A DNA stretch of 46,646 bases, taken from the NCBI GenBank assembly GCA_014800945.1, contig JAAVFD010000004.1, forward strand, positions 88,867-135,512, in the 5' to 3' direction. Under the pieces are notes generated by a model, which made no database searches, had not been told where the DNA came from, and worked only from the letters and a program-made list of their open reading frames with translations. Of the stretch, positions 6,539 to 25,012 are shown one piece after another; the first letter of the stretch is position 1, and every line of letters starts with the position of its first letter. The position numbers and the translations under genes are program-made. Origin of the DNA: Barnesiella sp. (GTDB taxonomy: Bacteria; Bacteroidota; Bacteroidia; Bacteroidales; Muribaculaceae).

Positions 6539-6573
6539 CGCCAACAAACGCACCCAGAATATTTTATATTACT

Positions 6574-7146
6574 ATGAAAAAATTCACATTCGCCATCAAA
6601 TGGCACGAGATTCTCAAACCCTATTCCGACGATATCCGTCGTGAAGTTTATGATGCTATTATTGAATATGTTGCCACAGGTACAATTATCGATATGCAAC
6701 CTGTTTCGCGCATGGCATTCGACTTTATCCGATATGAGATAGATGAAAAGGAACGCCGCAAAGAAGAGCGCTTGGCAAAAAAGCAATCTCAAGCAAAAGC
6801 ACAAGCAGAGCAGAAGGAGACATTTGACCCTGATGAGATTACCGATTCGTACATCGGCACAGGCAAGCTTTCCACTCCTCTGGTTGTGCAATCCAATGGA
6901 GTGGCAGTTATTGTTTCAAACGACAAGATACACGGTTTTGTCCGACGATGCGTCAGTGATATGCTTGAGCGCGAACTGACACCTTCCGGTGATGAAAACC
7001 GCTTTTTCAACACGCTCCATATCATTGCGTCAAATAGGCTCGATATTATCCGTGAGGATATCAAGAAGCATCACACTGATGAAGAATTTACCGATGAACT
7101 ATGGAATTCGATAGTGAATGATGCCTGTGCCAAGTTCCCCAAATAG
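6574..7146 (+). CDS. DUF6291-like protein
   Basis: 190 residues starting MKKFTFAIKWHEILKPYSDD. The N-terminal ~60 residues (a W-H-x-I-L-x-x-Y start, then REVYDAIIEYVATG and a later MAFDFIRYEID) resemble the DUF6291 segment found in Bacteroidales proteins, often near phage or replication genes. A Lys/Arg/Gln-rich stretch, probably helical or coiled, follows at ~60-85. The C-terminal half is mixed alpha/beta with no motif I recognise. The ATG at 6574 is preferred over an in-frame ATG at 6472 because the upstream one lies before the perfect promoter at 6507-6538. It is monocistronic in appearance, and the function is unknown. Confidence 0.6.
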   Translation: MKKFTFAIKWHEILKPYSDDIRREVYDAIIEYVATGTIIDMQPVSRMAFDFIRYEIDEKERRKEERLAKKQSQAKAQAEQKETFDPDEITDSYIGTGKLSTPLVVQSNGVAVIVSNDKIHGFVRRCVSDMLERELTPSGDENRFFNTLHIIASNRLDIIREDIKKHHTDEEFTDELWNSIVNDACAKFPK

Positions 7147-7436: not shown

Positions 7437-9372
7437 GTCTGTTATTAAACCGGATTCTGCAAAGTATCCGCTGCTGAGTGCTATCAATTCGCCCGAGGAT
7501 CTGCGCAATCTCCCTCTTGACAAGTTGGGAGGGGTGTGCAATGATATCCGCGGCTTTCTCATAGAAAATCTTTCAACAAACCCGGGACATTTCGCATCAA
7601 GCATGGGTGCGGTTGAGCTCACGGTTGCACTCCATTATGTTTTCAACACTCCTTACGACCGCATTGTGTGGGATGTCGGTCATCAGGCTTACGGGCATAA
7701 ATTGCTTACAGGCAGGGCAGGGCGTTTTCACACCAACCGCAAGCTCGGAGGGTTAAGCGGTTTCCCAAACCCGGATGAAAGTGAATATGATACATTTACA
7801 GCGGGTCATGCCTCCAACTCAATTTCGGCGGCTCTCGGAATGGCAGCTGCAGGGGCTTTGAAGCATGAATCACCAGCGCGTCATGTGGTGGCTGTTATAG
7901 GCGATGCGTCCATAAGCGGTGGTCTCGCTTTCGAGGGTCTCAATAATGCGGCTAATGCAAACAGCAATCTGCTCATTATTCTCAACGACAACGATATGTC
8001 GATAGACCGTAATGTGGGTTCGCTCAACTCTTATCTCGCTCATCTCACTGCCTCTAAGGGCTATAACAGCGTGAGGAACCGTTTTGGTAGGCTTGCGCGT
8101 AAAATGGGTTTGGTGACAGATAGCGGCAAGGGGCGCATACAGAGGTTTAACAACAGCCTGAAATCACTGATTACTAAGGAACAGAATATTTTCGAGGGAC
8201 TTAACATCAGATATTTCGGACCATTTGACGGACACGATTTACCTCGAATAATCAAGGTTCTCAACGATATCAAGGATATACCCGGTCCGAGGCTGCTGCA
8301 TCTGCGCACGGTCAAGGGCAAAGGTTATGCACCTGCCGAGAATGACCCGGCTCCGTGGCATGCTCCGGGCTGTTTTGACCCGGAGAGCGGCGAGCGCAAG
8401 GGTGAGGCTGACGATAAGCATAACCCCAAATTCCAGCAGGTGTTCGGCAACACTATCACCGCACTCGCTGAGGAGAATGACAGAATAGTGGGAATCACAG
8501 CGGCAATGTCTTCCGGCACATCGCTGAATATAATGCAGAAGGTGATGCCTGAAAGGGTATTTGATGTGGGAATTTCAGAAGGGCATGCCGTTACTTTTGC
8601 AGGCGGTCTCGCTAAAGAGGGTATGCTGCCTTTTGTCGCTATTTATTCTGCGTTCATCCAGAGGGCTTACGACAATATTATTCATGATGTGGCGGTGCAG
8701 GAACTTCCTGTTACTTTCTGCATTGATCGCGCGGGGCTTGTTGGTGAGGATGGCGTCACTCATCACGGTGTGCTTGATCTGGCATATATGAGGGCTATTC
8801 CGGGAATGACTGTTGCCGCTCCGCGGGATGCCGACACTCTACGCTCGCTGCTCTACACGGCACAGTTGCCGGAAAGAAAGGGCGCATGGGCTATACGCTA
8901 TCCGCGCGGCAGAGGATATTGCTCAAATCCTGATGCTCCTTTTACTCCAATAGCCATAGGTAAGGGAGAGCAGCTCCGTGAGGGAGCAGACGTGAATGTC
9001 TTGAGCCTCGGTGCGTTGGCTTCGGAGGCTGACAAAGCTCTTGATATGGCGGCTCAGAAGGGAGTTGAGTGCGCGCACTATGATATGATTTTTCTGAAAC
9101 CGCTCGATGAAGATATTCTTGAAAAGGTGGCTAAGACCGGCAAACCGATTGTTACGGTTGAGGATGGTACAGTAGAGGGCGGACTCGGCGGTGCTGTGCT
9201 CGAATGGCTTGCAAAAAAAGGCTATCAGCTACCGGTAACAAGAATAGGTGTGCCTGATGCTTTTGTGCCTCACGGCAAGGTGCCGCAGCTTTTCAAGCTT
9301 TGTGGTATGGATGCTGATGCTATTGCCAAAGCGGTTGTTGCGGCAGCGGGAAAGGAGGTTGCTGAACTATGA
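7408..9372 (+). CDS. dxs: 1-deoxy-D-xylulose-5-phosphate synthase
   Basis: 654 residues from the ATG at 7408; an in-frame ATG at 7369 would add 13 unlikely residues. The enzyme condenses pyruvate and glyceraldehyde-3-phosphate to DXP, the first step of the MEP isoprenoid pathway, and DXP also feeds thiamine and pyridoxal synthesis. Visible family features are the N-terminal [20 protein letters not shown] and [17 protein letters not shown] blocks. The thiamine diphosphate motif [17 protein letters not shown] with NDNDMSI lies near residues 165-200. The transketolase-like pyrimidine domain contains [16 protein letters not shown] and [15 protein letters not shown], followed by the C-terminal transketolase domain. 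The length is slightly above the usual ~620-640. The stop overlaps the trkA start as ATGA. Confidence 0.96.
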
Positions 9373-12250: not shown

Positions 12251-15112
12251 ATGGCTAAAAAAATCAAGGAAAAACAATATAATGCCGACTCTGAGAGTGC
12301 TATAAGCGCAAAGGGAGTCAGGGTTAACAATCTCAAGAATATTGATGTAGAAATTGAGCGTGGGGCAATGACTGTTGTCACCGGAGTGAGTGGCAGCGGC
12401 AAGTCAAGTCTTGCATTCGATACCTTATACGCTGAAGGGCAACGACGCTATGTGGAGAGCCTGAGCTCTTACGCAAGGCAGTTTTTAGGCAGAATGCCCA
12501 AGCCCGAGGCGGAGTGGATTAAAGGGCTTCCACCGGCTGTTGCAATTGAGCAAAAGGTTACAACGCGAAATCCCAGAAGCACTGTTGGCACTGCTACGGA
12601 GATTTACGATTATCTGCGTCTGCTTTTTGCGCGCATCGGCAGAACATATTCTCCGGTGTCTGGTCAGGAGGTTAAAAAGCATACCGTTGAGGATGTGGTG
12701 GATACTCTTTACACTTTTCCGGAAGGTACCAGATATGCTGTTACTGCACCGGTTACCATGCCTGAAAAGCGTCGCCTCGTGTCACAACTTGACGTCTATC
12801 TTAAAGGTGGATATAGCAGGCTGCTGAAGGAGGGCAACTTCGTGGATATAGCCTCGCTGATTGCAGAGGAACCGACTGATGCTACCGGACTGGAGCTGGT
12901 TGTTGACCGAAGCATGGTCAAGGATGATGCCGATGAGCGCAGCCGTCTTGCTGAGAGTGCAGAAGCTGCTTTTTTTGAGGGGCATGGGGTTCTCAATCTT
13001 TGGATTTGGGTAGCCGGTGAGGAGAATCCGCGTCGGCTGGAGTTTTCAAAAAGGTTTGAGGCTGACGGAATTGAGTTTGTTGAACCGAGTGAGATGATGT
13101 TCAACTTCAATAACCCTTATGGAGCGTGTCCGGTGTGTGAGGGTCTCGGGCAGGTTGAAGGTATTGATGAGAGAAAAGTAGTGCCGGATACCTCTAAAAG
13201 CGTTTATGAAGGGGCGGTTGCTCCTTGGCGAGGCGAAAAACTCGGTCTGTGGAAGCAGGAGCTGATAGCTATGGCGGATTCGGTGAATTTTCCGATACAC
13301 AGGGCTTACAATCAACTGACACGTGCTCAGAAAGATTTTCTGTGGCATGGTGGTAATGGATTTGAAGGCATAGACGGTTTCTTCCGCATGGTGGATGCTA
13401 ACCGACACAAGGTGCAGTATTCTGTCATAAAAGCACGCTATCGCGGACGCACGACTTGTATGGAGTGTCACGGTTCGCGTCTCAGAAAAGATACCGAGTA
13501 TGTCAAGATCGATGGCAAATCTATCAGCGACCTATGCAATACACCTATTGAGAAACTGGCAGATTTTTTTGATAATCTCAGTCTTGACAATCACGATGAA
13601 AAGATTGCAGGGAGAATACTTACAGAAATTAAATCACGCCTGGCTTATTTGAAAGATGTTGGTCTCGGTTATCTAACTCTTAGCCGTCGTGCGACTTCAC
13701 TTTCCGGTGGTGAGAGTCAGCGAATCAATCTTGCAACTTCTCTCGGCTCACCTCTAATGGGCTCTATGTATATTCTTGATGAGCCGAGTATCGGACTGCA
13801 TCCGCGTGACACCGGCAGGCTCGTCAATGTGATGCATAAACTGCGCGATGCCGGAAACACTGTGATTGTTGTTGAGCATGATGAGGATATTATGCGTGCG
13901 GCGGACAATCTTATTGATGTTGGTCCGGATGCAGGTAGTCTCGGAGGAGAAATAGTTTGGTCAGGAAAGGTGAACGATATATCTGCTTCTACACCGGGGC
14001 ATACAGCGGAGTTTCTTACCGGCAGAGATTCCATTCCGGTTCCTGCTTCAAGACGTAAATGGCGCGATTCCATAGTAATAGAAGGTGCACGGGAGAATAA
14101 TCTTAAGAATATTGATGTGAAGTTCCCTCTTGGAGTTCTGACGGCGGTTACCGGTGTCAGCGGTAGCGGTAAATCAACCCTTGTGCGCTCCATTCTCTAT
14201 CCGGCCCTTCTCGCTCATCTGGACATTGTGCCAACCGGTGATAAGCGTGTTACAGGTGAATTCAGTGCTCTGAAGGGAGACCTTTCGAGAATCTGCGGTG
14301 TGGAACTGGTTGATCAGAATCCGCTCGGCAGGTCATCGCGTTCTAATCCTGCGACTTACATGAAGGCATTCGACGAAATTAGAAGGCTATATTCAGAGCA
14401 GCAGATGAGTAAACAGATGGGTTTCAAGCCCGGATATTTCAGCTTCAATGCCGAAGGCGGTCGCTGTGAGGAGTGCAAGGGTGACGGCACTCTAACTATT
14501 GAGATGCAGTTTATGGCTGACATAACTATGGTTTGTCCGGAATGCGGAGGTAAGCGATACAAGCGTGAGGTTCTTGAAGTTCTGTATCGGGGAAAAAGCA
14601 TTTCCGATGTGCTGGATATGACTGTTGCCGATGCGATTGACTTTTTCGGCAGTGCTCCTGAAGGGTCGCTTACCGAGAAAAAGATTGTAAAACTGCTGAA
14701 GCCGCTTTATGACGTGGGTTTAGGTTACATAAAGCTGGGGCAGAGCACATCCACTCTTTCCGGAGGAGAGAGCCAGCGCCTTAAACTTGCAGGATACTTC
14801 GCATCAGAGAAGATGCAACCCACACTGTTTATACTTGATGAACCCACCACCGGGCTGCATTCGGCTGATATATCAAGGCTTATGAAGTCGCTTGACGCGC
14901 TTGTGTCACGAGGACACACAGTTATAGTTATCGAGCACAATCTTGATGTTATAAAATCCGCCGACTATGTGATAGACCTCGGGCCGGAAGGAGGAGAAGC
15001 CGGCGGAAACATTGTAGCCTCCGGCACCCCCGAGGATGTAGCTGCAAACTCGTCCTCCCTCACCGGTGCCTACCTCCGCCCCAAACTCTCCTCCAGCCCG
15101 ATAATAGTTTAG
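12251..15112 (+). CDS. uvrA: Excinuclease ABC subunit A paralogue
   Basis: 953 residues from MAKKIKEKQY. It is a tandem ABC-ATPase DNA-damage sensor that loads UvrB in nucleotide excision repair. The first half has GVSGSGKSS (Walker A), the UvrA block EGQRRYVESLSSYARQF, LSGGESQRINLA (signature) and ILDEPSIGLHPRD (Walker B). The second half has GVSGSGKST, LSGGESQRLKLA and ILDEPTTGLHSAD. A UvrB-binding-like segment lies at about residues 120-235. The C-terminal zinc module CEECKGDG...CPECGG is intact, but the first zinc module keeps only its second pair (CPVCEG). This suggests one of the extra UvrA copies of Bacteroidota. The start at 12251 is chosen because an upstream in-frame ATG lies inside the promoter. 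The stop overlaps the convergent neighbour. Confidence 0.88.
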   Translation: MAKKIKEKQYNADSESAISAKGVRVNNLKNIDVEIERGAMTVVTGVSGSGKSSLAFDTLYAEGQRRYVESLSSYARQFLGRMPKPEAEWIKGLPPAVAIEQKVTTRNPRSTVGTATEIYDYLRLLFARIGRTYSPVSGQEVKKHTVEDVVDTLYTFPEGTRYAVTAPVTMPEKRRLVSQLDVYLKGGYSRLLKEGNFVDIASLIAEEPTDATGLELVVDRSMVKDDADERSRLAESAEAAFFEGHGVLNLWIWVAGEENPRRLEFSKRFEADGIEFVEPSEMMFNFNNPYGACPVCEGLGQVEGIDERKVVPDTSKSVYEGAVAPWRGEKLGLWKQELIAMADSVNFPIHRAYNQLTRAQKDFLWHGGNGFEGIDGFFRMVDANRHKVQYSVIKARYRGRTTCMECHGSRLRKDTEYVKIDGKSISDLCNTPIEKLADFFDNLSLDNHDEKIAGRILTEIKSRLAYLKDVGLGYLTLSRRATSLSGGESQRINLATSLGSPLMGSMYILDEPSIGLHPRDTGRLVNVMHKLRDAGNTVIVVEHDEDIMRAADNLIDVGPDAGSLGGEIVWSGKVNDISASTPGHTAEFLTGRDSIPVPASRRKWRDSIVIEGARENNLKNIDVKFPLGVLTAVTGVSGSGKSTLVRSILYPALLAHLDIVPTGDKRVTGEFSALKGDLSRICGVELVDQNPLGRSSRSNPATYMKAFDEIRRLYSEQQMSKQMGFKPGYFSFNAEGGRCEECKGDGTLTIEMQFMADITMVCPECGGKRYKREVLEVLYRGKSISDVLDMTVADAIDFFGSAPEGSLTEKKIVKLLKPLYDVGLGYIKLGQSTSTLSGGESQRLKLAGYFASEKMQPTLFILDEPTTGLHSADISRLMKSLDALVSRGHTVIVIEHNLDVIKSADYVIDLGPEGGEAGGNIVASGTPEDVAANSSSLTGAYLRPKLSSSPIIV

Positions 15113-17658
15113 TCCGAGTAGAGGATGCCGGTGGGTGAGATGGCTTGGATTGAGATCCGTAGGTCAGTGCTAGTGGAGTTGTTGATGAATTCCAATCGAG
15201 CTTTTCCATCGGCATCGGTTGTGAGGTCGGGATTCCAGTATAAGGTGCGTCGTATATCCGGTTCATCCAAAAGGTCCAGGCTGTCAATATTCCGATATTC
15301 AGGCGGAACAGTGTAGCCTTCGATGGTTTGTAGGCGTGTGCCTCTTCCTGCCGGGCCTTTTGGCTCGTCAAATGTCTCAATTAATACCGCACACCCATAC
15401 TTTGCATCAATGTTAAACATGTCATTGGTGATGGGATCGGCATATCTGAGCATGGTTGCGGGGTCTTCGGTGATGTAGATGGATTTGATTGATTCCGGAT
15501 AAAGGTAGGTATAGTTCAAAGAGTCGGAATCATGTGTCGTTTTATAGTTGATGACGAAAAATGTTCCTTTTGTCTTATATTTGAGTTTTTCCCCCTGATG
15601 GGTGAATATTCTTGTGAAATTAGGATTGATTGCTTTAAGAATGTCAAATATATCGTTGCTGATGACAATACCTTCATCCGCGAGGTTGCCGAGTTCCTCC
15701 TGCATATCGTAGTACTCGATAGATTTGGAGCGTGAAAGGTATTTTTCATTTCGCTTTGCCGAAACAACCACTTCATCAAGCTGTGTGGTCTTGACAGATT
15801 GCTCATTGTCCAGATGTTCAATAATTTCCAAAGCTTCAGTGTCTTCTTTGATAGAGTCTTCGAACTCTTGAAAGGAGTATTTTTTGCCAACAGATGAGAT
15901 ATGATGTTCAACAACCATTTCCTGAGGTTCATATCTTCGTGGAGTAGGAGAGAAGAGCCGGTTGAGAATAAGGCGGTGATTTTTTGATTTACCTTTTTCA
16001 CTTACCGAAGTGACCATATCCCATTTTCCTATCAGATCATAGCAGATAGTGAAGTTACCGCATGAATCAGTTGCAATCAGGTCTGTAAACGTCTGTTTGG
16101 CAGAATCGGACTGCTCGTGTTGAGAGATCAGGACGGAGATATCGGTGTTTGCTTTCGGAACGCCGCGTACGAAAGACACAACTTTTCCATCGAGTTCTAT
16201 AGTCTGTTCCGGGTAATATTTGATAGTCAGAGGATTGATTCCGGCAATTTCTTCCCATGAATAGTTTCTCCATCCTGAAATCATCATGAGCAGGTCAAGA
16301 TTCAGTCTGTTTGTAGCAGTCGTGTCAGTAAAGTATTGTATTGGATTGTGCACATATCCTTTGATTTCAGACTGGAGAAGAAGATCGGCAAGCAACCCGT
16401 TCTGATAGTCAACAGCATTGTCAGCATCTGAAACAGAAACAGACATCGGCATAAATTGCTCGGGATTGCCTTCGGGGTCAGTAGCTTCAATTTCTAAAGT
16501 AACTTTTTCATGTGGGGCGGGAAATTGGTTGTTAAGTCGGGTATTTAGTTGTCCTACTCCACCGTTATTAATGAAAATCATTCTGTCAGCCAATGTTCTG
16601 CCGTCGGCTCCAAACAGGGTAATTAAGCTGACGCCGGAAGGAATATCCTTGGTATTGAGTCGTATAGTTCTGAGTGATGAAAGATTAACAAATGAATAGG
16701 ACAATAATATGCCTCTTGAAGTCACTGCAAGACCAATCATATCTGAACCGGTGGAATCGGCTGCCGGTGTAACGGATATATAGATACTGTCGGGATTAGT
16801 GATATTGTCAACACACAACCCTATGCCTTTGCTACTTGATTCGGGCAGACGGAATTTCCGCTCAGTGTTATCTGCGGGTGTCTGGATAACAGCAGTGTAG
16901 ATTTTATTGGGTTCAGGAGTTATAGTGAAGTAGCCTCTACCTTCATGAATGGTTGAAATGGAGTCTATTATGTGACCTGTTGCTTCATCTATTACAATAC
17001 CTTTGCCTTCAATAGGTCGCCCGTGGCGACCTGTTATCTCAAATGCCACTCTTGTCGGCACTCCGGCAATGAGCTTGCCACCTTCAGGGAAGAATCTCAT
17101 GGATAGTTTAGGACTTTTTGCAGGTGCTGGACGTGAACCGGTGTATTTAGATATGTCACGTGTCATTTTTTGGTCGGAATAGTCACCGGCTTTTTCCGGA
17201 TGCTCGAATACCGGAACTATTCGTGAAAATATAGCTGTCTCTCCAAAATTTAGCATATATTTGGTATATGCCCTTATCTCGTAGAATCCGGAATAAAATG
17301 GGAGGTGGTTGAGGGTGAACGCTCCAGAACAACGTCCATTACGTATTTTAAGAATCTGTTTTCCAATAACTTTTCCCCGAGGGTTGAGTAATTCAACGTA
17401 GAGGGTATTGCTTAATGATGTGGGTGTATTGTCCAGACTGTTTATAACATAGCACTGGAACCAAATTTTATCACCGGCAAAATATGACGTGTTATCCAGA
17501 TGAACGAAGACCTTTTCATGGGGAAATTTTTTTGAGAATGTTTGTGCCTGAGTGAGGTAATATCTTATATTTCTTATTGTTATGTCATTGACTGCTGCAT
17601 TAATGAGATTTGTGACAGCTAATAGCAGAATTAAAAATATGGTGAGTTTATATTTCAT
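15109..17658 (-). CDS. Secreted MG2-like protein with TonB-plug-like C-terminal region
   Basis: 849 residues with a Sec signal peptide (residues 1-21, LTIFLILLLAVTNLINAA). Residues ~45-150 (KVFVHLDNTSYFAGDKIWFQ, then GFYEIRAYTKYML) match the macroglobulin-like MG2 fold of large Bacteroidota envelope proteins. Residues ~190-290 are another beta-sandwich. Around residue ~640 comes LDEVVVSAKR, the typical lead-in to a TonB-receptor plug, followed by a plug-like fold to ~790 but no beta barrel. The last ~30 residues (DADGKARLEFINNS) again resemble a macroglobulin-type domain. It is probably periplasmic or outer-membrane associated, with unknown substrate. The gene overlaps the end of uvrA by 4 bases tail to tail. 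Confidence 0.7.
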   Translation of the reverse strand: MKYKLTIFLILLLAVTNLINAAVNDITIRNIRYYLTQAQTFSKKFPHEKVFVHLDNTSYFAGDKIWFQCYVINSLDNTPTSLSNTLYVELLNPRGKVIGKQILKIRNGRCSGAFTLNHLPFYSGFYEIRAYTKYMLNFGETAIFSRIVPVFEHPEKAGDYSDQKMTRDISKYTGSRPAPAKSPKLSMRFFPEGGKLIAGVPTRVAFEITGRHGRPIEGKGIVIDEATGHIIDSISTIHEGRGYFTITPEPNKIYTAVIQTPADNTERKFRLPESSSKGIGLCVDNITNPDSIYISVTPAADSTGSDMIGLAVTSRGILLSYSFVNLSSLRTIRLNTKDIPSGVSLITLFGADGRTLADRMIFINNGGVGQLNTRLNNQFPAPHEKVTLEIEATDPEGNPEQFMPMSVSVSDADNAVDYQNGLLADLLLQSEIKGYVHNPIQYFTDTTATNRLNLDLLMMISGWRNYSWEEIAGINPLTIKYYPEQTIELDGKVVSFVRGVPKANTDISVLISQHEQSDSAKQTFTDLIATDSCGNFTICYDLIGKWDMVTSVSEKGKSKNHRLILNRLFSPTPRRYEPQEMVVEHHISSVGKKYSFQEFEDSIKEDTEALEIIEHLDNEQSVKTTQLDEVVVSAKRNEKYLSRSKSIEYYDMQEELGNLADEGIVISNDIFDILKAINPNFTRIFTHQGEKLKYKTKGTFFVINYKTTHDSDSLNYTYLYPESIKSIYITEDPATMLRYADPITNDMFNIDAKYGCAVLIETFDEPKGPAGRGTRLQTIEGYTVPPEYRNIDSLDLLDEPDIRRTLYWNPDLTTDADGKARLEFINNSTSTDLRISIQAISPTGILYSD

Positions 17659-17680
17659 GAGCGTTTCTGGGATATCTATG

Positions 17681-17688
17681 CAAAGATA
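17681..17688 (-). promoter_or_regulatory. -7 box for the MG2-like gene
   Basis: The minus strand reads TATCTTTG, a full TAnnTTTG match, 23 bases before the minus-strand ATG at 17658. No clear -33 TTTG is seen. Confidence 0.6.
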
Positions 17689-17822
17689 GCGCTAATCAAT
17701 CGGAATTATATAAATCAGTTTTTTTTAACAGTTGTATGCGTGATTTAATATTTGGGAGGGGAGTAAACAGAAGAGGGGGACTGAGCGTTGTTTTGTTAGA
17801 CAATAGAATAAAACATCGCATT

Positions 17823-19133
17823 ATGAATAATAAAGATATGTCGCGCAGTTCAGCTCGTGAAAAAATTGTGGTTATAGGTGGCGGATTCGCCGGTCTTAAT
17901 CTGGTTAAAAAACTGGATAAGAAAAAGTTTGAGGTTGTATTGGTAGATGCTAATAATTATCATTCCTTTCCTCCACTATTCTATCAGATAGCGAGCAGCG
18001 GACTGGATCCGTCAAGTATTTCTTTTCCGTTTAGAAGGGAGATGCGTAAGGGCAAAGTGAAAGGCGTCAAGTATCAGATGGGAAAGGTCGAGACAATTGA
18101 TTTTGACCGCAAGGAGGTTAAAACCCAATATGAGTCAATATGTTATGATAAGCTTGTTGTTGCGGCGGGCACGACAAACAATTTTTTCGGAAATCCCGAT
18201 CTGGTGAAGAGTGTCTATACCATTAAGTCTGTGCCGGAGGCTATACGCTGCCGTGATGAAATTCTTGAGCGTATGGAGTGTGCCACTATTACTGATGATG
18301 CTGAGCAAAGAAAGAAACTCCTCACTTTCACGGTGATTGGTGGTGGACCTACAGGAGTTGAAATAGCCGGTGCTCTCGGCGAGATGAAACGGTATATCCT
18401 TCCCCGGGAATATCCCACTATTTCACCGGATGAACTTAAAATAGTTATCATAGAGGGTAATAACCGGCTTCTCGGTACCATGAGCGAAGAATCATCGGCT
18501 AAGGCGGAGAAGTATCTTAACAAGCTGATGGTGGATGTTAAGCTCAATCAGCTGATGAAGTCTTACGAGGACGGAGTGGTGACACTTGGTGATGGTTCTC
18601 AGTTTAACGGAGGTATGGTGATCTGGACTGCCGGAGTGACCTCTCAGAAATTTGACATGAAGGGGAGTGGTCCCGAGCTTGACCGTTCAGGCAGATTTCC
18701 GGTTGATAGTAGCTGCGCAGTGAAGGGAGTCAAAGATGTTTATGCTCTCGGAGATATCGCTTTCATGCCTTCGGATGAGAATCCGAAGGGTTTGCCACAG
18801 CTTGCGCAGGTGGCAATTCAGCAGGCTCGGCATCTTGCCAAAGAGCTTAATAAGGGTGAATTTCAAGAATTCCGATACAAGGATAAAGGTTCAATGGCAA
18901 CAGTAGGAAGGAATCTCGCAGTAGCCGATTTGCCTCACATGCATCTATCGGGATTCTTTGCTTGGCTGACATGGATGTTTATACACCTGATTTCCATTCT
19001 CGGCATGAGGAATAAGATTACAGTGCTAATCACTTGGATATGGGCATACTGCTCTTATCCTACATCGCTGCGCCTTATCATGTCTCCTTCCCGTTACCCG
19101 CTCAAATCGGGCAGGAAGGACGGTTTGGTGTGA
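17823..19133 (+). CDS. Type II NADH:quinone oxidoreductase (NAD(P)/FAD-dependent)
   Basis: 436 residues from ATG 17823 (MNNKDMSRSS); a further start at 17838 is possible and the frame is open upstream to 17736. It is a non-proton-pumping NADH dehydrogenase. The FAD-binding Rossmann motif is VVIGGGFAGLNLVKKL. The NADH-binding motif VIGGGPTGVEIAGAL lies near residue 175. The second FAD motif is GVKDVYALGDIAF, followed by the quinone-side AQVAIQQARHLAK block. The last ~70 residues contain a hydrophobic hairpin (FFAWLTWMFIHLISILG, ITVLITWIWAYCS) that would anchor it to the inner membrane. The length fits Ndh-2 enzymes. It is followed directly by rnpB. Confidence 0.88.
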   Translation: MNNKDMSRSSAREKIVVIGGGFAGLNLVKKLDKKKFEVVLVDANNYHSFPPLFYQIASSGLDPSSISFPFRREMRKGKVKGVKYQMGKVETIDFDRKEVKTQYESICYDKLVVAAGTTNNFFGNPDLVKSVYTIKSVPEAIRCRDEILERMECATITDDAEQRKKLLTFTVIGGGPTGVEIAGALGEMKRYILPREYPTISPDELKIVIIEGNNRLLGTMSEESSAKAEKYLNKLMVDVKLNQLMKSYEDGVVTLGDGSQFNGGMVIWTAGVTSQKFDMKGSGPELDRSGRFPVDSSCAVKGVKDVYALGDIAFMPSDENPKGLPQLAQVAIQQARHLAKELNKGEFQEFRYKDKGSMATVGRNLAVADLPHMHLSGFFAWLTWMFIHLISILGMRNKITVLITWIWAYCSYPTSLRLIMSPSRYPLKSGRKDGLV

Positions 19134-19153
19134 CGCTTGTAGGAATTTTTGCT

Positions 19154-19161
19154 TACCTTTG
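19154..19161 (+). promoter_or_regulatory. -7 box of rnpB
   Basis: TACCTTTG (TAnnTTTG) ends 11 bases before the predicted 5' end of RNase P RNA at 19173. The -33 element is weak. It sits just after the NADH dehydrogenase stop. Confidence 0.65.
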
Positions 19162-19172
19162 CAGAAATATAA

Positions 19173-19545
19173 GACAGTCGGGCGTTTCGTCGCTCGCCGA
19201 TGAACAAGCGGCGTGAGGAAAGTCCGGGCAACATAGAGCACCACACTTTCTAACGGAAAGCTGCGGGTGACCGCAGAGTAGTGTGACAGAAAAGAACCGC
19301 CACATCAGTGGTAAGGGTGAAAAGGCGGGGTAAGAGCCCACCGGGCTTCATGGTGACATGAGGTGCCGCACATCTTTGGGTTGCAAGGCCATGTATACCG
19401 GCATTTAAGGATTGCTCGTCCATTGTCGGGGGGTAGGCTGCTACAGCCGGCTGGCAACAGCCGGCGCAGATAAATGACGAAACATCGGAGCAAGCCTAAG
19501 GGAACTGCTTCCGGTGACATAACCCGGCTTATAGCCCGGCTGTCT
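19173..19545 (+). ncRNA. rnpB: RNase P RNA (bacterial type A)
   Basis: Catalytic RNA of RNase P, which matures tRNA 5' ends. The universally conserved 5' core GAGGAAAGTCCGGGC is at about 19215-19229. The other conserved blocks appear in order: ACAGAAA, GGTAAGAGCCCACCG, the P-helix hairpins, and the 3' core around GATAAATGAC with AACCCGGCTTAT. The terminal P1 helix is formed by 19173-19183 (GACAGTCGGGC) and 19534-19544 (GCCCGGCTGTC) with one G.U pair. A T-run follows at 19545-19549 and probably ends transcription. The ends are set from P1 and could be off by a few bases. Confidence 0.96.
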
Positions 19546-19582
19546 TTTTCTATATAATATATACGCTCAGAGGATTATTTGC

Positions 19583-19590
19583 TATTTTTG
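19583..19590 (+). promoter_or_regulatory. -7 box of the HAD phosphatase gene
   Basis: TATTTTTG matches TAnnTTTG, 30 bases before the ATG at 19620. No convincing -33 element is seen. Confidence 0.5.
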
Positions 19591-19619
19591 CATAAATGAA
19601 TTATTAGTATAAGATTTTT

Positions 19620-20243
19620 ATGAAAGCTGCTTTATTTGACCTTGACGGCGTGATAATTGATAGTGAACGACTTTACACAGTTTTCTGGGATGGAATAGAG
19701 AAGATTTATCCTACCGGAATAGAAAATTTTGCTGTGGCAATCAAGGGATCTACACTACCTGAAATATTGTCGTTATATAAGTCTGATGAGGAGAGGGAAG
19801 ATATTACAAGTCGTCTGCTTGATTTTCAGGATAATATGATGTTTCCTCTTATGCCGGGGGCAATGGAGTATCTGAAAAAGTTGAAAGATAACGGGATACC
19901 GAGAGCGTTGGTGACGAGTAGTGACAGCCGCAAAATGGATTGTCTGTTCAAGCAGTTGCCTAAGTTGAAAGATATGTTTGATGTGATAATTGATGCATCT
20001 AAGGTCACGAAGTCGAAACCTGATCCTCAGGGGTATCTTCTTGCAGCGGAGGCACTTGGCGTTAATGCCGGTGATTGCGTGGTTTTTGAAGACAGCCTGA
20101 ACGGTTTGAAGGCTGGTCGTGCGAGTGGTGCCAAAGTGGTTGGTCTGGCAACAACTTTGCCGGCAGCATCCCTGGAGGGTATGGCAGATTTGATTGTTGG
20201 TGGATGGGATGAGGTTGAGGCTGACAACTCTATGATTTGTTGA
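19620..20243 (+). CDS. HAD family phosphatase (beta-phosphoglucomutase-like), with replaced C-terminus
   Basis: 207 residues. Motif I is FDLDGVIIDSE at residues 5-15 with the nucleophile and acid/base aspartates. Motif II is VTSSDSRK, motif III is KSKPDPQGYLLAA and motif IV is VVFEDSLNGLKAG. It is a HAD subfamily IA hydrolase with a helical C1 cap, acting on a sugar phosphate or similar small phosphate ester in the cytosol. The last ten or so residues are unusual. Codons up to GGWDEV are repeated at 21470-21516, where they continue to KAEEL and a stop, while this copy ends EADNSMIC. The original 3' end was probably separated by the inserted cassette that starts here. The catalytic core is complete, so the protein is likely functional. 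Confidence 0.88.
   Translation: MKAALFDLDGVIIDSERLYTVFWDGIEKIYPTGIENFAVAIKGSTLPEILSLYKSDEEREDITSRLLDFQDNMMFPLMPGAMEYLKKLKDNGIPRALVTSSDSRKMDCLFKQLPKLKDMFDVIIDASKVTKSKPDPQGYLLAAEALGVNAGDCVVFEDSLNGLKAGRASGAKVVGLATTLPAASLEGMADLIVGGWDEVEADNSMIC
20188..20224 (+). repeat. Direct repeat, left copy (inside the HAD gene 3' end)
   Basis: 37 bases identical to 21470-21506 except one position (g at 20217, a at 21499). It codes for LIVGGWDEV and the following residues of the HAD protein and bounds the two-gene insertion on the left. Confidence 0.9.
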
Positions 20244-20283
20244 TTAAAATAGTAGAAAAGATTAAATTTTAGATAAATATTCA

Positions 20284-20291
20284 TATCTTTG
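20284..20291 (+). promoter_or_regulatory. -7 box of the cassette genes
   Basis: TATCTTTG is a full TAnnTTTG match, 18 bases before the ATG at 20310. It favours that start over an in-frame ATG at 20289 that lies within the box. No clear -33 TTTG is seen at the usual spacing. Confidence 0.6.
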
Positions 20292-20309
20292 CTACTGAGT
20301 GGAAATTTC

Positions 20310-21179
20310 ATGGATAAAACTTTTAGACATATAAAATTCAGAAGTACAAAGCGCAATGAATGGATTCCTCAAATAGTATCTGAAACTAATGTTTGTGAAA
20401 AAATTTCCAACCAAAAGTTTATGATACATTTTGATGACGAAATTAATAGAAAGGATTTGGAACCACTTCATTTAGTAAGTCTTGCTTGTTTAATTGAACA
20501 AATATATTCGACTGGAAATGAGGCATACATTTCTAAAGATAATCCAGATGTGCTAAAGTATATAACAGGAGATTTGGGATTCCAATCATATTGGAGTGGT
20601 GGAAAAAATCATGTAGATGCAGTGAACTCCTCAAACATATTTAATTTATGGAGAATAACGGATTCAGAAAAAGATATGTATGCTAAGCAAGTTGAATCTT
20701 ATTTACGTTCTACATATTTCTCAAAAAAGGATTTGAGTTCAGTAAATGTATGTTTGGTCGAAGCATTCTATAATGTGTTTGACCATGCTGAAGCGAAAGG
20801 CAATGCATTTTCTTTATTGAGTTATGATGAGAGGAAAGGCGAGTTGCATGGAGCGATATGTGATTTTGGGATAGGAATAAGAAAAACGTTACAAAGTAAG
20901 TATCCAGAGATAATCAATGATGTTGAGGCAATCAATTTCTCAATTAAAACGGGAGTGACAGCTCAATCTACCGGACGAAATAAGGGTTTCGGAATGGGGA
21001 ACATTGTAGATAATGTGGATACGATAAGGATAATGAGTGGAAATGGACTTGTGGTAAAAATGAATAATGAAATAAAAAGTTACACACCAACTTTTACATT
21101 TCCAGGTACGTTACTATATTTTAATATCAACCTTGCTTCTCTGGATGATGAGGTAGTTATGGATGTGTTTAGTTTATAA
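20310..21179 (+). CDS. GHKL (HATPase) protein with STAS-like N-terminal half
   Basis: 289 residues from MDKTFRHIKF. The C-terminal half has the Bergerat ATP-binding boxes: N-box EAFYNVFDHA, G1-box CDFGIGIRKTL (DxGxG), G2-box GRNKGFGMGNIVDNV and a final FPGTLLYFNI. This is the layout of anti-sigma-factor or histidine-kinase-type ATPases, without a dimerisation/phospho-acceptor domain. The N-terminal half (residues ~25-100, DLEPLHLVSLACLIEQIYSTG, later LKYITGDLGFQSYW) has the helix-strand rhythm of a STAS/MoxR-adjacent regulatory domain; that reading is an inference. It is followed after 8 bases by a DUF4325 gene, so the two are very likely one functional pair. Codon choice is AT-rich compared with its neighbours. 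The target is unknown. Confidence 0.75.
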   Translation: MDKTFRHIKFRSTKRNEWIPQIVSETNVCEKISNQKFMIHFDDEINRKDLEPLHLVSLACLIEQIYSTGNEAYISKDNPDVLKYITGDLGFQSYWSGGKNHVDAVNSSNIFNLWRITDSEKDMYAKQVESYLRSTYFSKKDLSSVNVCLVEAFYNVFDHAEAKGNAFSLLSYDERKGELHGAICDFGIGIRKTLQSKYPEIINDVEAINFSIKTGVTAQSTGRNKGFGMGNIVDNVDTIRIMSGNGLVVKMNNEIKSYTPTFTFPGTLLYFNINLASLDDEVVMDVFSL

Positions 21180-21187
21180 AATAGATT

Positions 21188-21475
21188 ATGAATACAATTA
21201 TATTAAATCAAATTTTTGATACTTCAAAAGATTTAACAGATGCTGGTACCTGTCTTTATGATAGAATTAAAGCGCAGATAAATTCCAACGATAAAGCAAT
21301 TATTGATATGGCAGGAGTAACTTCTATGTCCTCCGTTTTTATGAATGTTTCCATAGGTCGCATAATTGATGAATACGGTATGGATGCCTTAAAGAAAGCT
21401 ATATCATTTTCAAACATAACTCAACAGCAGGCGAAACGACTAACAGAGTATCTAGAAAGATACTCAAACATTTGA
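21188..21475 (+). CDS. DUF4325 (STAS-like) protein
   Basis: 95 residues. The core AIIDMAGVTSMSSVFMNVSIG matches the DUF4325 signature (acidic residue, then SSxF and a following G), and ISFSNIT matches the conserved strand before the last helix. STAS-like proteins are typically small partners of GHKL kinases, as in anti-sigma/anti-anti-sigma switches. Here the N of F-x-N replaces the more usual acidic residue after SSxF. The gene starts 8 bases after the ATPase gene. Its last two codons (ATT TGA) lie inside the right-hand direct repeat, so the insertion boundary coincides with the end of this gene. Confidence 0.8.
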   Translation: MNTIILNQIFDTSKDLTDAGTCLYDRIKAQINSNDKAIIDMAGVTSMSSVFMNVSIGRIIDEYGMDALKKAISFSNITQQQAKRLTEYLERYSNI

Positions 21476-21506
21476 TTGTTGGTGGATGGGATGAGGTTAA
21501 GGCTGA
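21470..21506 (+). repeat. Direct repeat, right copy
   Basis: 36 of 37 bases match 20188-20224. It overlaps the DUF4325 stop codon and reads on as the probable original end of the HAD gene. Confidence 0.9.
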
Positions 21507-21516
21507 GGAACTTTGA
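21470..21516 (+). pseudogene. Displaced original 3' end of the HAD phosphatase gene
   Basis: In the HAD reading frame this stretch encodes LIVGGWDEVKAEEL and then TGA at 21514-21516. It has no start of its own. It ends 5 bases before the convergent DUF5009 gene, so before the insertion the HAD and DUF5009 genes were immediate convergent neighbours. Confidence 0.75.
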
Positions 21517-21521
21517 GGCTG

Positions 21522-22592
21522 TTAGATTTTGAGGAAGATTTTTCGGCGATACATCTCTCTCAGAATAAAAAAGAGAATCAGGAAGTTGCCGAAGGTAAGC
21601 CATGCATTGTAGTAACTGCCAAGAATTGGCTGTAAGCCATAGCTTACCGAACTTACAATGCTTCTGAAATTGATGACCTCTCCCAAAAGATATGCAGTAA
21701 TTGCGTTCATCCCATATATTTTCAACCAGTTCAGTCCTCGTGTATATCCTAAACAATCAATGATATAGTAGAAAAGTGACATTAGAATAAAACAAAGCCC
21801 ACTAGAAAATAGGGTCATGCTGGATGTCCATAGCCTTTTTATAATAGGCATTTCCAGACTCCATAAAAGTCCGGCCGCGGTTAATGCTATGCCTGTTGCA
21901 AATAGAATACATGCTGCACGAGGCTTGTTTGCCGAGTGATTACGAATAATAACTCCGGCGAAGTAACCGGTCAAAACAGTTACACCGAAGTTGATGCTGC
22001 TCCAAATCCAAGTGTAGGTGATGTCTCCTCTGAATTTACCGATAATAGCTTTGTCAACAGAGTAAGCAAATGAGCCATAAAGTGAATAATCCCCACAAAA
22101 TTTCATCGGAATCCAATATATTACAAGGAGCGATGCTGTTACTGCTATCTGGGCTCTTAGTGGAAGGGAGAGAATAATTATTGATGCTATAAGATAGCCT
22201 ATTGCGATAGCCTGAAGTGTATTGGTGTAGATATAAATCCGGGATAAGTCAAAACCAAGGATATTTCCCTGCACGATCATGCCGAAAAAGAACAATATTA
22301 TAACCCGCCTGATTATTTTCCGATACAAATCGGCATAGTCTTTGTTTCTGATGTACTTGCTGAATGAAAATGGCATAGAGGTGCCCACCATAAACAGGAA
22401 CAACGGCATAACAAGATCCCAAACTCTGAATCCTTCCCACACTTCATGGTCAAGTTGGTAAAGTATTGTGTTCAGCCAATGTATATCCGCAGCTTGCCCA
22501 ATGGCAATAATTACAGGCTGAGCAAATACAAGCAGGAATAAATCCAATCCCCGGAGTATGTCAAGAGATGCCAGACGTGAATTATGTTGCAT
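21522..22592 (-). CDS. DUF5009 / heparan-alpha-glucosaminide N-acetyltransferase-like membrane protein
   Basis: 356 residues from MQHNSRLASLDILRG; an in-frame ATG seven codons upstream exists (22613). The opening R-L-A-S-L-D-I-L-R-G-L-D followed by about ten hydrophobic helices is the signature of the DUF5009/HGSNAT-like acyltransferase family. These proteins are thought to transfer acyl groups across the inner membrane to sugars. Helix 2-3 contains VWDLVMPLFLFMVGTSMPFSFSKY, including the conserved D-L-x-x-P-L-F-L-F-x-V-G. The substrate is unknown. It is convergent with the HAD/cassette locus and preceded on its strand by tRNA-Thr and a terminator. Confidence 0.85.
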   Translation of the reverse strand: MQHNSRLASLDILRGLDLFLLVFAQPVIIAIGQAADIHWLNTILYQLDHEVWEGFRVWDLVMPLFLFMVGTSMPFSFSKYIRNKDYADLYRKIIRRVIILFFFGMIVQGNILGFDLSRIYIYTNTLQAIAIGYLIASIIILSLPLRAQIAVTASLLVIYWIPMKFCGDYSLYGSFAYSVDKAIIGKFRGDITYTWIWSSINFGVTVLTGYFAGVIIRNHSANKPRAACILFATGIALTAAGLLWSLEMPIIKRLWTSSMTLFSSGLCFILMSLFYYIIDCLGYTRGLNWLKIYGMNAITAYLLGEVINFRSIVSSVSYGLQPILGSYYNAWLTFGNFLILFFILREMYRRKIFLKI

Positions 22593-22630
22593 ATATTCCA
22601 AGAAGTTAAGCAAATAATTTACAAGACTTA

Positions 22631-22668
22631 CTAAATAAAAAACTCAGCCGATTATACAAGACTGAGTT
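22631..22668 (-). terminator. Intrinsic terminator after tRNA-Thr
   Basis: On the minus strand a 7-bp stem AACTCAG/CTGAGTT (22668-22662 and 22647-22641) is followed by a T-rich run (TTTTATTTAG), about 15 bases downstream of the tRNA. Confidence 0.7.
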
Positions 22669-22682
22669 TTAATTTAGCTTTG

Positions 22683-22755
22683 AGCCGCGAGTGGGACTCG
22701 AACCCACGACCTTCTCGTTACGAATGAGATGCTCTACCAACTAAGCTATTGCGGC
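22683..22755 (-). tRNA. tRNA-Thr (CGT)
   Basis: 73 nt cloverleaf on the minus strand. The acceptor GCCGCAA pairs with TCGCGGC (one A6.C67 mismatch). The D-arm contains AGTTGGTA, the anticodon loop is TTCGTAA with CGT at 34-36, and the T-arm GTGGG-TTCGAGT-CCCAC is perfect. The anticodon stem TCTCA/CGAGA has an A31.C39 mismatch. The anticodon reads threonine ACG codons. CCA is not encoded. Confidence 0.93.
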
Positions 22756-22787
22756 AAACTGTATTTCTGCTTCTATGAAAATCAGAA

Positions 22788-22795
22788 CAAAGATA
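22788..22795 (-). promoter_or_regulatory. -7 box of tRNA-Thr
   Basis: The minus strand reads TATCTTTG, about 33 bases upstream of the tRNA 5' end, next to the stop codon of the DUF4270 gene. No clear -33 box. Confidence 0.6.
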
Positions 22796-22799
22796 CGAA

Positions 22800-24179
22800 T
22801 TATTTTGAGTATTGACGTGTATATGTCAGTTTAATCTTAGCGTTATTTATATCTAACTTAACCATAGCAGGCTTTTGAACGTAGGGGCTTATTGTGGTAA
22901 TATAAGAAACGGTTGAACCATAGCTTGAATTACTTTCTGTTTCAATATTAACGGGTACGAGCAAGAATGTATAATCCTCAGGTTCCAGCGTGTCCTTTTT
23001 CAGCATCTCAACAAGGTAATCTCTCATAGCTGTGAAGCTATAAGATTTATTTAATGAGTTGTAAGAGGTTGAAAATGAAGTCAGATTGTCTGTAATCTTA
23101 TTCTCGGCAAAGAATTTATCCTTATCTTTCTCAAGTATTAGCAATACATCAGCCGGTGGCTCGATGCCATAAGTGTTTTCAATAGTTTCAGCCGGAATTT
23201 CAAATGACAATCCGTTCAGCACCGAAAGGTTTCCTGCACCGTTGCGATATGTCTGAACCAGAGCCGGGGTCGGGAAGATAATTTTTGTTTCCATACCAGC
23301 CGGTGCAACAAGCAGCGAGTTTCCCAGTTTAGCGAGCTCAGTGAGCTGTTCGCTGAGTTTCAAAGAAATATTGTTGTTTGTTATAACTTCCGGTGTGACT
23401 GCGAAGTAAGAGCGAACTTTATTGTAAATAGTATCTTTTTCAACATCATCAACCGTTGCTGTTGTGTGCTGGCGGTAATAGATGTTTATTCTGGTTTCAG
23501 AAATATTTATAACACGTCCGGAGCCAAAAGATGTTGTAACATAAAGTCCCGGGAAGAGAGTGGTGAATTTATCCGGAAGAGCGAACATTGATGAGTCCTG
23601 AAGGTAAGCGCTGTACAAATCCTGTCCGAGCGATCTTGGTAAAGTGATGCTGAAAGATCTGAAATTAAGCGCATTTACGGAGTCGTTATACATAGCGTGC
23701 GCTGTGTATATGGTTGAGCCGAGTTTTTTAGACTCGTCATAGTACCCTTTAGGGTCGAAGTCGCTATAGATGGGATAGGGGAGTTGCTTGGTGAGCGGAT
23801 ACACCTCAATGCCCATAGGCACGAGTGAGTCACCGGTAAAATCACCGGGCACCATAAACATAATGAGTTTTGCCGAGTCGATATCTTCAACTGTTACGCC
23901 TTTTGTTTCCATGCTGAGCGAAGGGAGGAACTGGCAAACGAAGTCAGATTTGAAAGATCCGAACTCCTTAGCATCCAAACATCCAAGCAGCTGGGTTATT
24001 GTTCGAGACTGCACAACCGGGTCAAGCAAAGTTGTTCCTGAAGCAGTAAATGTACTGTCAATAATTATTTCGGTCTGCTCTGTAATTAGAGATGAGCCGA
24101 CGGTTGTGGTATCATCCTGACAAGCGTATAGTGCGCTAGCGGAGATAAGAACAGTTGCTAATAATTTGATTGATTTCAT
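22800..24179 (-). CDS. DUF4270 family lipoprotein
   Basis: 459 residues. A lipoprotein signal peptide ends at the lipobox LYAC (Cys at ~20), so the mature protein is lipid-anchored in the envelope. The following DDTTTVGSSLI and the beta-rich body with SRTITQLLGCLDAKEFG match the DUF4270 family of Bacteroidota. That family is usually encoded next to the short glycogen-synthase-like gene, as here, with 11 bases between the two. The biochemical role is not known. It is probably co-transcribed with the upstream gene from the box at 25048. Confidence 0.88.
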   Translation of the reverse strand: MKSIKLLATVLISASALYACQDDTTTVGSSLITEQTEIIIDSTFTASGTTLLDPVVQSRTITQLLGCLDAKEFGSFKSDFVCQFLPSLSMETKGVTVEDIDSAKLIMFMVPGDFTGDSLVPMGIEVYPLTKQLPYPIYSDFDPKGYYDESKKLGSTIYTAHAMYNDSVNALNFRSFSITLPRSLGQDLYSAYLQDSSMFALPDKFTTLFPGLYVTTSFGSGRVINISETRINIYYRQHTTATVDDVEKDTIYNKVRSYFAVTPEVITNNNISLKLSEQLTELAKLGNSLLVAPAGMETKIIFPTPALVQTYRNGAGNLSVLNGLSFEIPAETIENTYGIEPPADVLLILEKDKDKFFAENKITDNLTSFSTSYNSLNKSYSFTAMRDYLVEMLKKDTLEPEDYTFLLVPVNIETESNSSYGSTVSYITTISPYVQKPAMVKLDINNAKIKLTYTRQYSK

Positions 24180-24190
24180 CGGTATCAGGC

Positions 24191-25012
24191 TTATTTGCCT
24201 TCCTCAACAAGAGAGGTGTAGAATTCAGAATATTTGTCCGCGTAATCTTCATTGCCGGTATAATCAAGAATCGGCTTGGAGAGTGATCGAGCGTATTCAA
24301 TAAGCTCAGTATCAACATTGGGAGATGTAATTACCACAGCATCAGAATGAAGAATCGCAAGTTTATTTAATGCCGTGTTGTCGGCAGGCTGTGAACCAAG
24401 AATAGCAAGATCCTCTTCCGGGAACTGTAGGGATTTGAGCTTATCAATGAGTCGAGCATCGAGGGTGCCTTCAAATTTTTCCGGTCTTATAGAGAATACT
24501 ATTTTGGATTTTGCGAGTGCCGGGTCATCCTGATACATTCTCTTGACATACATAGGCACGAGTGTAGAAATCCATCCAGTGCAGTGTATCACAGCAGGAT
24601 CCCAGCGGAGTTTCTTCACTGTTTCAATAACTCCTTTGGCAAAAAACATCATTCTCTCATCGTTGTCATGAGGAGAGGTAACAGTTTCAAGTTCTTTAGC
24701 ACCCGCACGCTGGAAATAGTCATCATTATCGATGAAATACACCTGCATTCTCGAGGGTTGCAAAGTTGCCACCTTAATAATTAGAGGGTGGTCACTGTCG
24801 TCAATTATAATATTCATACCGGAAAGGCGAATAACTTCGTGCAGCTGGTTTCTGCGCTCGTTTATACAGCCATATTTGGGCATGAATGTGCGCACCTCAT
24901 ATCCTTTTTCCTGCACTTTCTGAGGGAGTTCCCTTCCATAAAGTGACAAAGGAGATTCAGGGAGATAGGGTGCGATCTCCTGAGAGATGTAGAGTATTTT
25001 TTTGTTTTCCAT
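24191..25012 (-). CDS. Glycogen/starch synthase-like protein, N-terminal GT5 half only
   Basis: 273 residues, beginning MENKKILYISQEIAPYLPES, the GT5 N-terminal fold of glycogen synthase. HCTGWISTLVPMY near residue 145 is the family H-x-x-D/G-W segment. The protein stops after the N-terminal Rossmann domain; full-length GlgA is ~480-550 residues and carries a second, ADP-glucose-binding domain. The canonical KTGGLGDV motif near residue 15 is replaced by ESPLSLYGRELP. Such short copies are standard in Bacteroidales upstream of DUF4270 genes, so this is not a recent truncation. Glycosyltransferase activity is doubtful. Confidence 0.8.
   Translation of the reverse strand: MENKKILYISQEIAPYLPESPLSLYGRELPQKVQEKGYEVRTFMPKYGCINERRNQLHEVIRLSGMNIIIDDSDHPLIIKVATLQPSRMQVYFIDNDDYFQRAGAKELETVTSPHDNDERMMFFAKGVIETVKKLRWDPAVIHCTGWISTLVPMYVKRMYQDDPALAKSKIVFSIRPEKFEGTLDARLIDKLKSLQFPEEDLAILGSQPADNTALNKLAILHSDAVVITSPNVDTELIEYARSLSKPILDYTGNEDYADKYSEFYTSLVEEGK

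Follow-up and report, generated by a model that had tools for sequence, protein, structure and literature searches.

Insertion of restriction-modification genes with long target duplication was reportedly described by Nobusato in 2000 and by Furuta in 2010. Passages of several papers describe this mode of insertion for restriction-modification genes (PMC1643837, PMC3031569, PMC3874152, PMC3154945), and the passages of one of them put the target repeats "in the order of 100 bp" (PMC3874152). A different mode of entry is used by tyrosine-recombinase elements, which, in the relevant passages of PMC5704250, target the 3′ ends, more rarely the 5′ ends, of tRNA genes and housekeeping protein genes and are flanked by direct repeats. 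According to the same passages, such integration leaves the gene product "unchanged or almost unchanged", and CIMEs keep attL and attR without an integrase (PMC5704250).

The proteins treated here resemble those of two signalling systems. In the parts of a 2026 study on VapKSC and CapKS that we draw on (PMC13373217), CapK (HTH-STAS-GHKL) and CapS (STAS-wHTH) constitute a DNA-damage switch controlling immune operons for phage defence, the kinase of VapK-VapS-VapC is proposed to release a toxin, and the STAS protein has an absolutely conserved Ser/Thr. Neither "mobile" nor "direct repeat" occurs in the main text of that study. Our literature searches, which were not aimed at that combination, returned no link of a kinase-STAS pair to target duplication. 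The mobility mark described below is known; the cargo and its stand-alone form are new to us.

The locus lies in the window, a 46,646-nt stretch of one contig (C4) of a draft assembly that also contains a second relevant contig, C10. Its features are as follows.

19620..20243, plus strand: HAD-family hydrolase gene in its present form, 207 aa, C-terminus EADNSMIC (Pfam PF00702, E 7.5e-30)
20188..20224, plus strand: direct repeat copy 1, same sequence as the C10 allele (repeat comparison)
20225..21469, plus strand: insert between the repeats, 1,245 nt, GC 0.319 (window 0.438), one copy only in its own genome
20284..20291, plus strand: promoter-like TATCTTTG ahead of the kinase gene (putative, from sequence)
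20310..21179, plus strand: GHKL kinase gene, 289 aa, CapK/VapK-like (PF13581, E 9.5e-07; Foldseek)
21188..21475, plus strand: STAS-like DUF4325 gene, 95 aa, CapS/VapS-like (PF14213, E 2.3e-12; profile against VapS)
21470..21506, plus strand: direct repeat copy 2, one G to A change relative to copy 1 (repeat comparison)
21507..21516, plus strand: displaced original HAD end GGAACTTTGA, same letters in the C10 allele
21522..22613, minus strand: convergent neighbour with a DUF5009 domain, left untouched by the insertion (ORF list, Pfam)

The direct repeats are 37 nt long, identical at 36 of 37 positions and spaced 1282 nt apart, just as the first-pass annotation had placed them. From copy 2 the HAD frame runs onward to VKAEEL and a stop at 21516; five bases separate this stop from the convergent gene (which ends at 21522). 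The present HAD tail EADNSMIC comes from the insert, and copy 2 in turn gives the second cassette gene its final Ile and stop (ATT TGA); both genes at the insertion borders are still open. These points, too, had been claimed beforehand and hold for the sequence and its open reading frames. The base composition of the insert deviates from that of the window, and TATCTTTG may be a promoter of the Bacteroidetes -7 type. No recombinase or transposase was found by Pfam in the insert, which has two genes only, neither of them matching a recombinase, in agreement with the earlier statement that it has no integrase. Allowing up to three mismatches, the 37-nt repeat occurs at three sites in its own genome, two at the cassette and one on C10. 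A match to it on contig C38 of another genome (G018) is due to chance in low-complexity FtsK-coding DNA. An RNase P RNA gene is located at 19174-19547, just upstream of the HAD gene (Rfam).

If the cassette was inserted, a form with one repeat and the original HAD end was predicted to exist, and it was found on C10 of the same assembly. A search with the HAD gene returned a second copy there, 99% identical over 605 of 624 nt, with a single copy of the repeat (L021:6767-7381), a HAD form of 204 aa ending in EVEAEEL and the same convergent gene next to it. Comparison of EVEAEEL on C10 with EVEADNSMIC in the cassette allele reveals that only the tail is altered. This is an insertion polymorphism within one assembly, and the target is duplicated in the filled allele. 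The first-pass annotation had named two outcomes that would speak against insertion, namely a cassette with both repeats in all relatives, and HAD homologues that normally end in EADNSMIC with no KAEEL form. C10 has one repeat copy, no cassette and the EAEEL form, and 0 of 17 HAD relatives, taken from the loci returned by the HAD gene search, end in EADNSMIC. The C-termini of these 17 relatives are variable and include neither EADNSMIC nor an EEL ending (two further loci, L002 and L020, have no full ORF). The convergent neighbour beside HAD was absent from the short flanks of 19 relatives' loci, thus the empty site of the window is known from its own assembly alone. Because that neighbour was not found and none of the 17 ends in EEL, they are not established as the same locus.

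C4 and C10 are 97.7-97.9% identical over 9,261, 2,466 and 18,788 nt, and the genome is a draft of 82.4% completeness and 2.1% contamination. C10 is a second haplotype, most likely from another strain in the bin, so that C4 and C10 may represent separate strains that were binned as one; C10 could also be a re-excised allele. The contigs differ at a second place as well (window 15095-17759, L145, versus C10 97283-104904, L021), where C4 has one 849-aa ORF and C10 a 7.6-kb block. For the first gene of that block, 859 of 915 aa were searched and gave a PADLOC match to a Type IIG restriction enzyme-methyltransferase (E 1.5e-254); the second gene of the block matches the PADLOC candidate family PDC-S32.

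The product of the first cassette gene has a GHKL ATPase domain (PF13581, E 9.5e-07) with motif residues that are invariant in alignment A1. Its predicted model (pLDDT 84) matches GHKL proteins in Foldseek, with Hsp90 types at the top of the list and SpoIIAB (1l0o), an anti-sigma kinase, in third place but with the better target fit (TM 0.66 of the target). The kinase also matches the uncharacterised phage family phrog_3364 (E 2.5e-31), and a PDB sequence search with the kinase profile gave no match at E 0.1. By our reading, the N-terminal part of the predicted model has a STAS-like order of elements; a profile comparison with the STAS protein gives nothing. The STAS protein (P0002) is one 95-aa domain matching PF14213 (DUF4325; E 2.3e-12), and a search with its profile A2 returned the solved structure of Escherichia VapS (9z7o_A) at E 2e-10. 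In A2, 15 of 15 homologues have Ser or Thr at the residue that aligns with VapS S48 (a numbering that we place within the 9z7o_A chain), a likeness to the conserved Ser/Thr of the STAS protein in PMC13373217; in the window protein this residue is Ser49. Foldseek with the STAS model gave no match at E 0.001, the best being RsbV at E 0.35.

As in the described parts of CapK/CapS and VapKSC, a GHKL kinase gene is followed directly by a STAS gene (PMC13373217). Unlike CapKS, the window pair has no HTH, no wHTH (none in either cassette protein by Pfam) and no downstream immune operon, and unlike VapKSC, it has no VapC toxin gene in the window; the gene after STAS is the convergent DUF5009 gene. Since it lacks DNA-binding domains and a toxin gene, the pair is outside CapKS and VapKSC as defined, and by analogy it would act like a kinase-substrate switch of the CapK/VapK type. 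Around 26 kinase-STAS loci, no third gene recurs by our reading, and several pairs are alone between ordinary genes. Matches in PADLOC were obtained for 3 of 10 chosen neighbour proteins, and a defence neighbourhood of the kinase-STAS pairs is only suggested; the DrmA matches of the cassette proteins themselves were too weak and were set aside.

The occurrence of the cassette is sporadic across family and order. Counting its own genome each time, matches were present in 10 of 397 genomes of the family (single-protein search), in 29 of 393 of the order and in 34 of 395 of the phylum (profile searches), many of the weaker matches being to the ATPase part only. One other genome of the window's genus, G010, carries the cassette, at 53% identity in the single-protein search of the family, and 53% is also the identity of the closest cassette protein in the genome searches. 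Three plasmid records (two Hymenobacter, one Streptococcus) and seven streptococcal phage records have matches, all distant, and the kinase is found on two IMG/VR contigs at 41% identity.

The first-pass annotation expected the same cassette elsewhere, next to repeats of other gene borders, and homologous pairs in Bacteroidota are indeed so placed. The insertion recurs at other targets, between direct repeats of 40-92 nt with another sequence at each locus. The repeats are perfect in an ATCC assembly of Prevotella pallens (47 nt, before a poly(A) polymerase/CCA-type gene by Pfam), in G108 (40 nt, ahead of a class I tRNA synthetase gene, apparently ileS), in G743 (80 nt, at 5466-5545 and 6809-6888 of L120) and in G506 (66 nt). 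Those of G949 (51 nt, one mismatch; it includes a tRNA-Arg gene end and terminator), G1064 (46 nt, 3 mismatches), G561 (68 nt, 9 mismatches) and G757 (92 nt; 154 alignment columns with gaps) are imperfect. Among the nine clean loci, defined below, the repeats are 37, 40, 46, 47, 51, 66, 68, 80 and 92 nt long, with 0-3 mismatches in eight of nine. When the nine were compared pairwise, 35 of 36 pairs were within chance as judged against shuffles, and they have no common sequence.

The repeats of L040, L047 and L129 lie on what we take to be the promoter side, from a promoter motif assumed by us. Terminator-like hairpins are part of the L120, L128 and L130 repeats, and the L122 repeat contains the last 14-15 nt of a tRNA-Arg plus its terminator. 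With Rfam at gathering scores, run on 10 loci and on window positions 17000-25000, the tRNA at L122 was the only RNA family to fall on a repeat; another lies 140 nt from the L130 repeat. The 80-nt repeat of L120 is the end of an unnamed conserved element that has a terminator and occurs in 8 of 24 relatives of G743. Among 40 relatives of G757, no full-length match to an empty site for L117 was found, and G695 has a partial match. The ends of 10 inserts have no terminal inverted repeats, no shared motif and no excess over shuffles (lowest P 0.06, at L128), which argues against a DDE transposon or MITE. By our reading, the L047 insert ends in an apparent piece of a transposase gene.

A bracketing repeat was defined as one scoring at least 25 and located within 1 kb on each side. 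Such repeats were present at 12 of 37 kinase-STAS loci and at 0 of 451 pseudo-cassettes, which came from 33 of the 37 loci (145 of the 451 from the window) and overlap, so they are not independent. The 12/37 is biased upward because L128-L131 were fetched after a repeat had been seen; without these and the window, 9 of 32 loci are bracketed versus 0 of 306 pseudo-cassettes (those of the window removed). No second gene was detected at L116 and L123, and L037, L118, L123 and L126 are at or near contig ends. Four of the 12 bracketed loci are otherwise explained. At L048 (G035) the pair is flanked by two copies of a sequence with inverted ends (6562-6747 and 8059-8119), which we take to be MITE-like; the repeats at L043 and L121 are duplicated gene pieces, that of L121 being a diverged duplicate of the neighbouring gene; and the repeat at L113 is probably a dispersed one. 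Eight clean bracketed loci are left, the window included, and nine with L129, whose 66-nt perfect repeat is outside the 12/37 count and was seen in separate repeat tests. L113 (G741) itself has two kinase-STAS pairs about 4 kb apart in one locus.

HigB-like and AbiEii loci of the same order served as controls and had bracketing repeats at 1/25 and 2/25, respectively, or 3/50 together. This test needed 2,600 nt, a length available for 66 of 67 family loci and for 25 of 30 loci per control set, and it included distant loci with 1.5-kb flanks. In the kinase family it gave 12/66; without the window the comparison is 11/65 versus 3/50 (one-sided p 0.07), and with a wider core it is 10/66 versus 3/50 (p 0.10). 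The excess of bracketing repeats in the kinase family over small toxin-antitoxin modules is weak, and the repeat mark is common to other small modules, toxin-antitoxin loci included. In the bracketed HigB-like control, from G423 (L229, 2788-4139), a HigBA toxin-antitoxin pair is enclosed by copies of the 3′ end of a tRNA-Asp with its terminator, of which there are three in all.

A second empty site was observed at ileS. In G108 the cassette is between 40-nt perfect repeats beside the ileS-like gene. G179, a sister genome in the genus of G108, aligns to the ileS side over 2,179 nt (98.7% identity). Its alignment to the opposite flank covers 143 nt (98.6%) and shares exactly 40 nt of G179 with the first one, so that the site has one repeat copy and no cassette. 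G155 has cassette pieces beside ileS (L228 3756-4138), one of 175 nt at 93% and one of 24 nt adjoining the repeat, and its site is a relic of a kinase-STAS cassette; the family genome search gave no kinase match in G155. The three genomes are 96-99% identical over the ileS-side flank and present three states, cassette, empty and relic. Therefore, gain or loss occurs at the repeats among closely related genomes.

The unit in the window has the look of a mobile, self-contained one, with no moving enzyme visible. We consider it somewhat better than even (probability about 0.55) that a stand-alone two-gene kinase-STAS module went into the HAD gene close to its 3′ end and duplicated 37 bp there, most plausibly by illegitimate or replicative joining. 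In such a step, a broken target end may copy the incoming DNA and then rejoin the target upstream of the point of its departure (template switch). Joining of this kind would account for repeats that vary in length, for insert ends that are not conserved and for sites at gene borders, where insertion is tolerated. The kinase may sense single-stranded DNA or DNA damage and would phosphorylate the STAS protein at Ser49. A bolder version, which we regard as doubtful, holds that the pair is complete in itself, a selfish or immune unit that needs no integrase and spreads by long target duplications, the DNA-break chemistry that it senses being the moment of its insertion. As in the described passages on restriction-modification insertion, an empty allele can be compared with a filled one (C10 and G179 being the empty ones here), the direct target repeats are long, variable and of a sequence specific to the site, no mobility gene is present (no recombinase in the window insert), and the cargo is a small immune or addiction-type module. 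The differences from those passages are the kinase-STAS cargo, the Bacteroidales host and repeats of 37-92 nt versus approximately 100 bp.

The first-pass annotation had likened the locus to site-specific integration at a gene 3′ end. The target-duplicating insertion in that proposal stands, given C10 and the repeats elsewhere. Site-specific integration at gene 3′ ends is less well supported, as the repeats differ in sequence and length, the insert ends share no motif and three repeats are promoter-side, points that are not decisive. It is less likely than insertion with long target duplication because the targets differ at every locus and there is no integrase. The protein-coding target, which the annotation contrasted with a tRNA target, would not be new, given the housekeeping protein genes already among the integration targets in the passages of PMC5704250. 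A decayed or trans-mobilised integrative element resembling a CIME, with the 37-nt repeats as attL/attR and an integrase lost or acting from elsewhere in the genome, is a possible but distinctly less probable explanation. Elements known from those passages do sit at gene ends with direct repeats, CIMEs among them without an integrase (PMC5704250), and the window shares these traits. The tRNA-Arg end and terminator at L122 and the HigBA pair between tRNA-Asp 3′ end copies also fit this explanation, the hairpins in the L120, L128 and L130 repeats suit an att site equally well, the own genome has five tyrosine-recombinase matches (all on contigs other than that of the window), and the kinase has the phage-family and IMG/VR matches given above. 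Nevertheless, no recombinase is found within the insert, and repeats that differ per locus would require one integrase per cassette; related elements share no att core, which we would expect under one integrase, and three repeats are promoter-side. In contrast to CIMEs as described in those passages, the relatives' repeats are not a shared site, the unit is a minimal one of 1.3 kb and the HAD tail is altered, since the last 10 nt of the original HAD gene, stop codon included, lie beyond the repeat. The changed tail is not decisive by itself, for "almost unchanged" in the passages of PMC5704250 may cover an altered tail.

Homologous recombination from a donor that already had the cassette at this locus, with the old repeats as crossover sites for gain and loss, is improbable as the origin of the window allele. 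Two haplotypes coexist at 98% identity, the ileS site is in three states among three related genomes, and L121 has a diverged duplicate of a neighbouring gene, all of which suit such exchange; it would, however, account for spread inside a lineage and not for the first insertion at each new target, and no donor allele was found in the genome searches, where the closest cassette protein is 53% identical. Least probable is an assembly or binning artefact, in which the cassette or the repeat stems from mis-joined strains. The draft state of the genome (82.4% complete, 2.1% contamination) and the presence of one region in two haplotypes would allow it, but both border genes are open, other genomes (the ATCC assembly of Prevotella pallens is one) have the same pair flanked by perfect repeats, and G179 provides an empty sister site outside this assembly.

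In the literature passages considered, the entry of small recombinase-free defence or addiction modules into chromosomes is unexplained, and the duplications of restriction-modification genes are described without a mechanism. At the nine clean loci, one minimal unit, about 1.3-2.0 kb in size, has inserted several separate times, and two of these loci have empty sister alleles. Because of these separate insertions, the empty sister alleles and the same mark at some toxin-antitoxin loci, the joining step is open to comparative study. Kinase-STAS pairs of the CapK/VapK type can stand alone, with no known effector. If the pair is indeed an integrase-free unit, mobility of the restriction-modification type would extend to signalling modules, and a general route for small defence and addiction cassettes into genomes would be implied.
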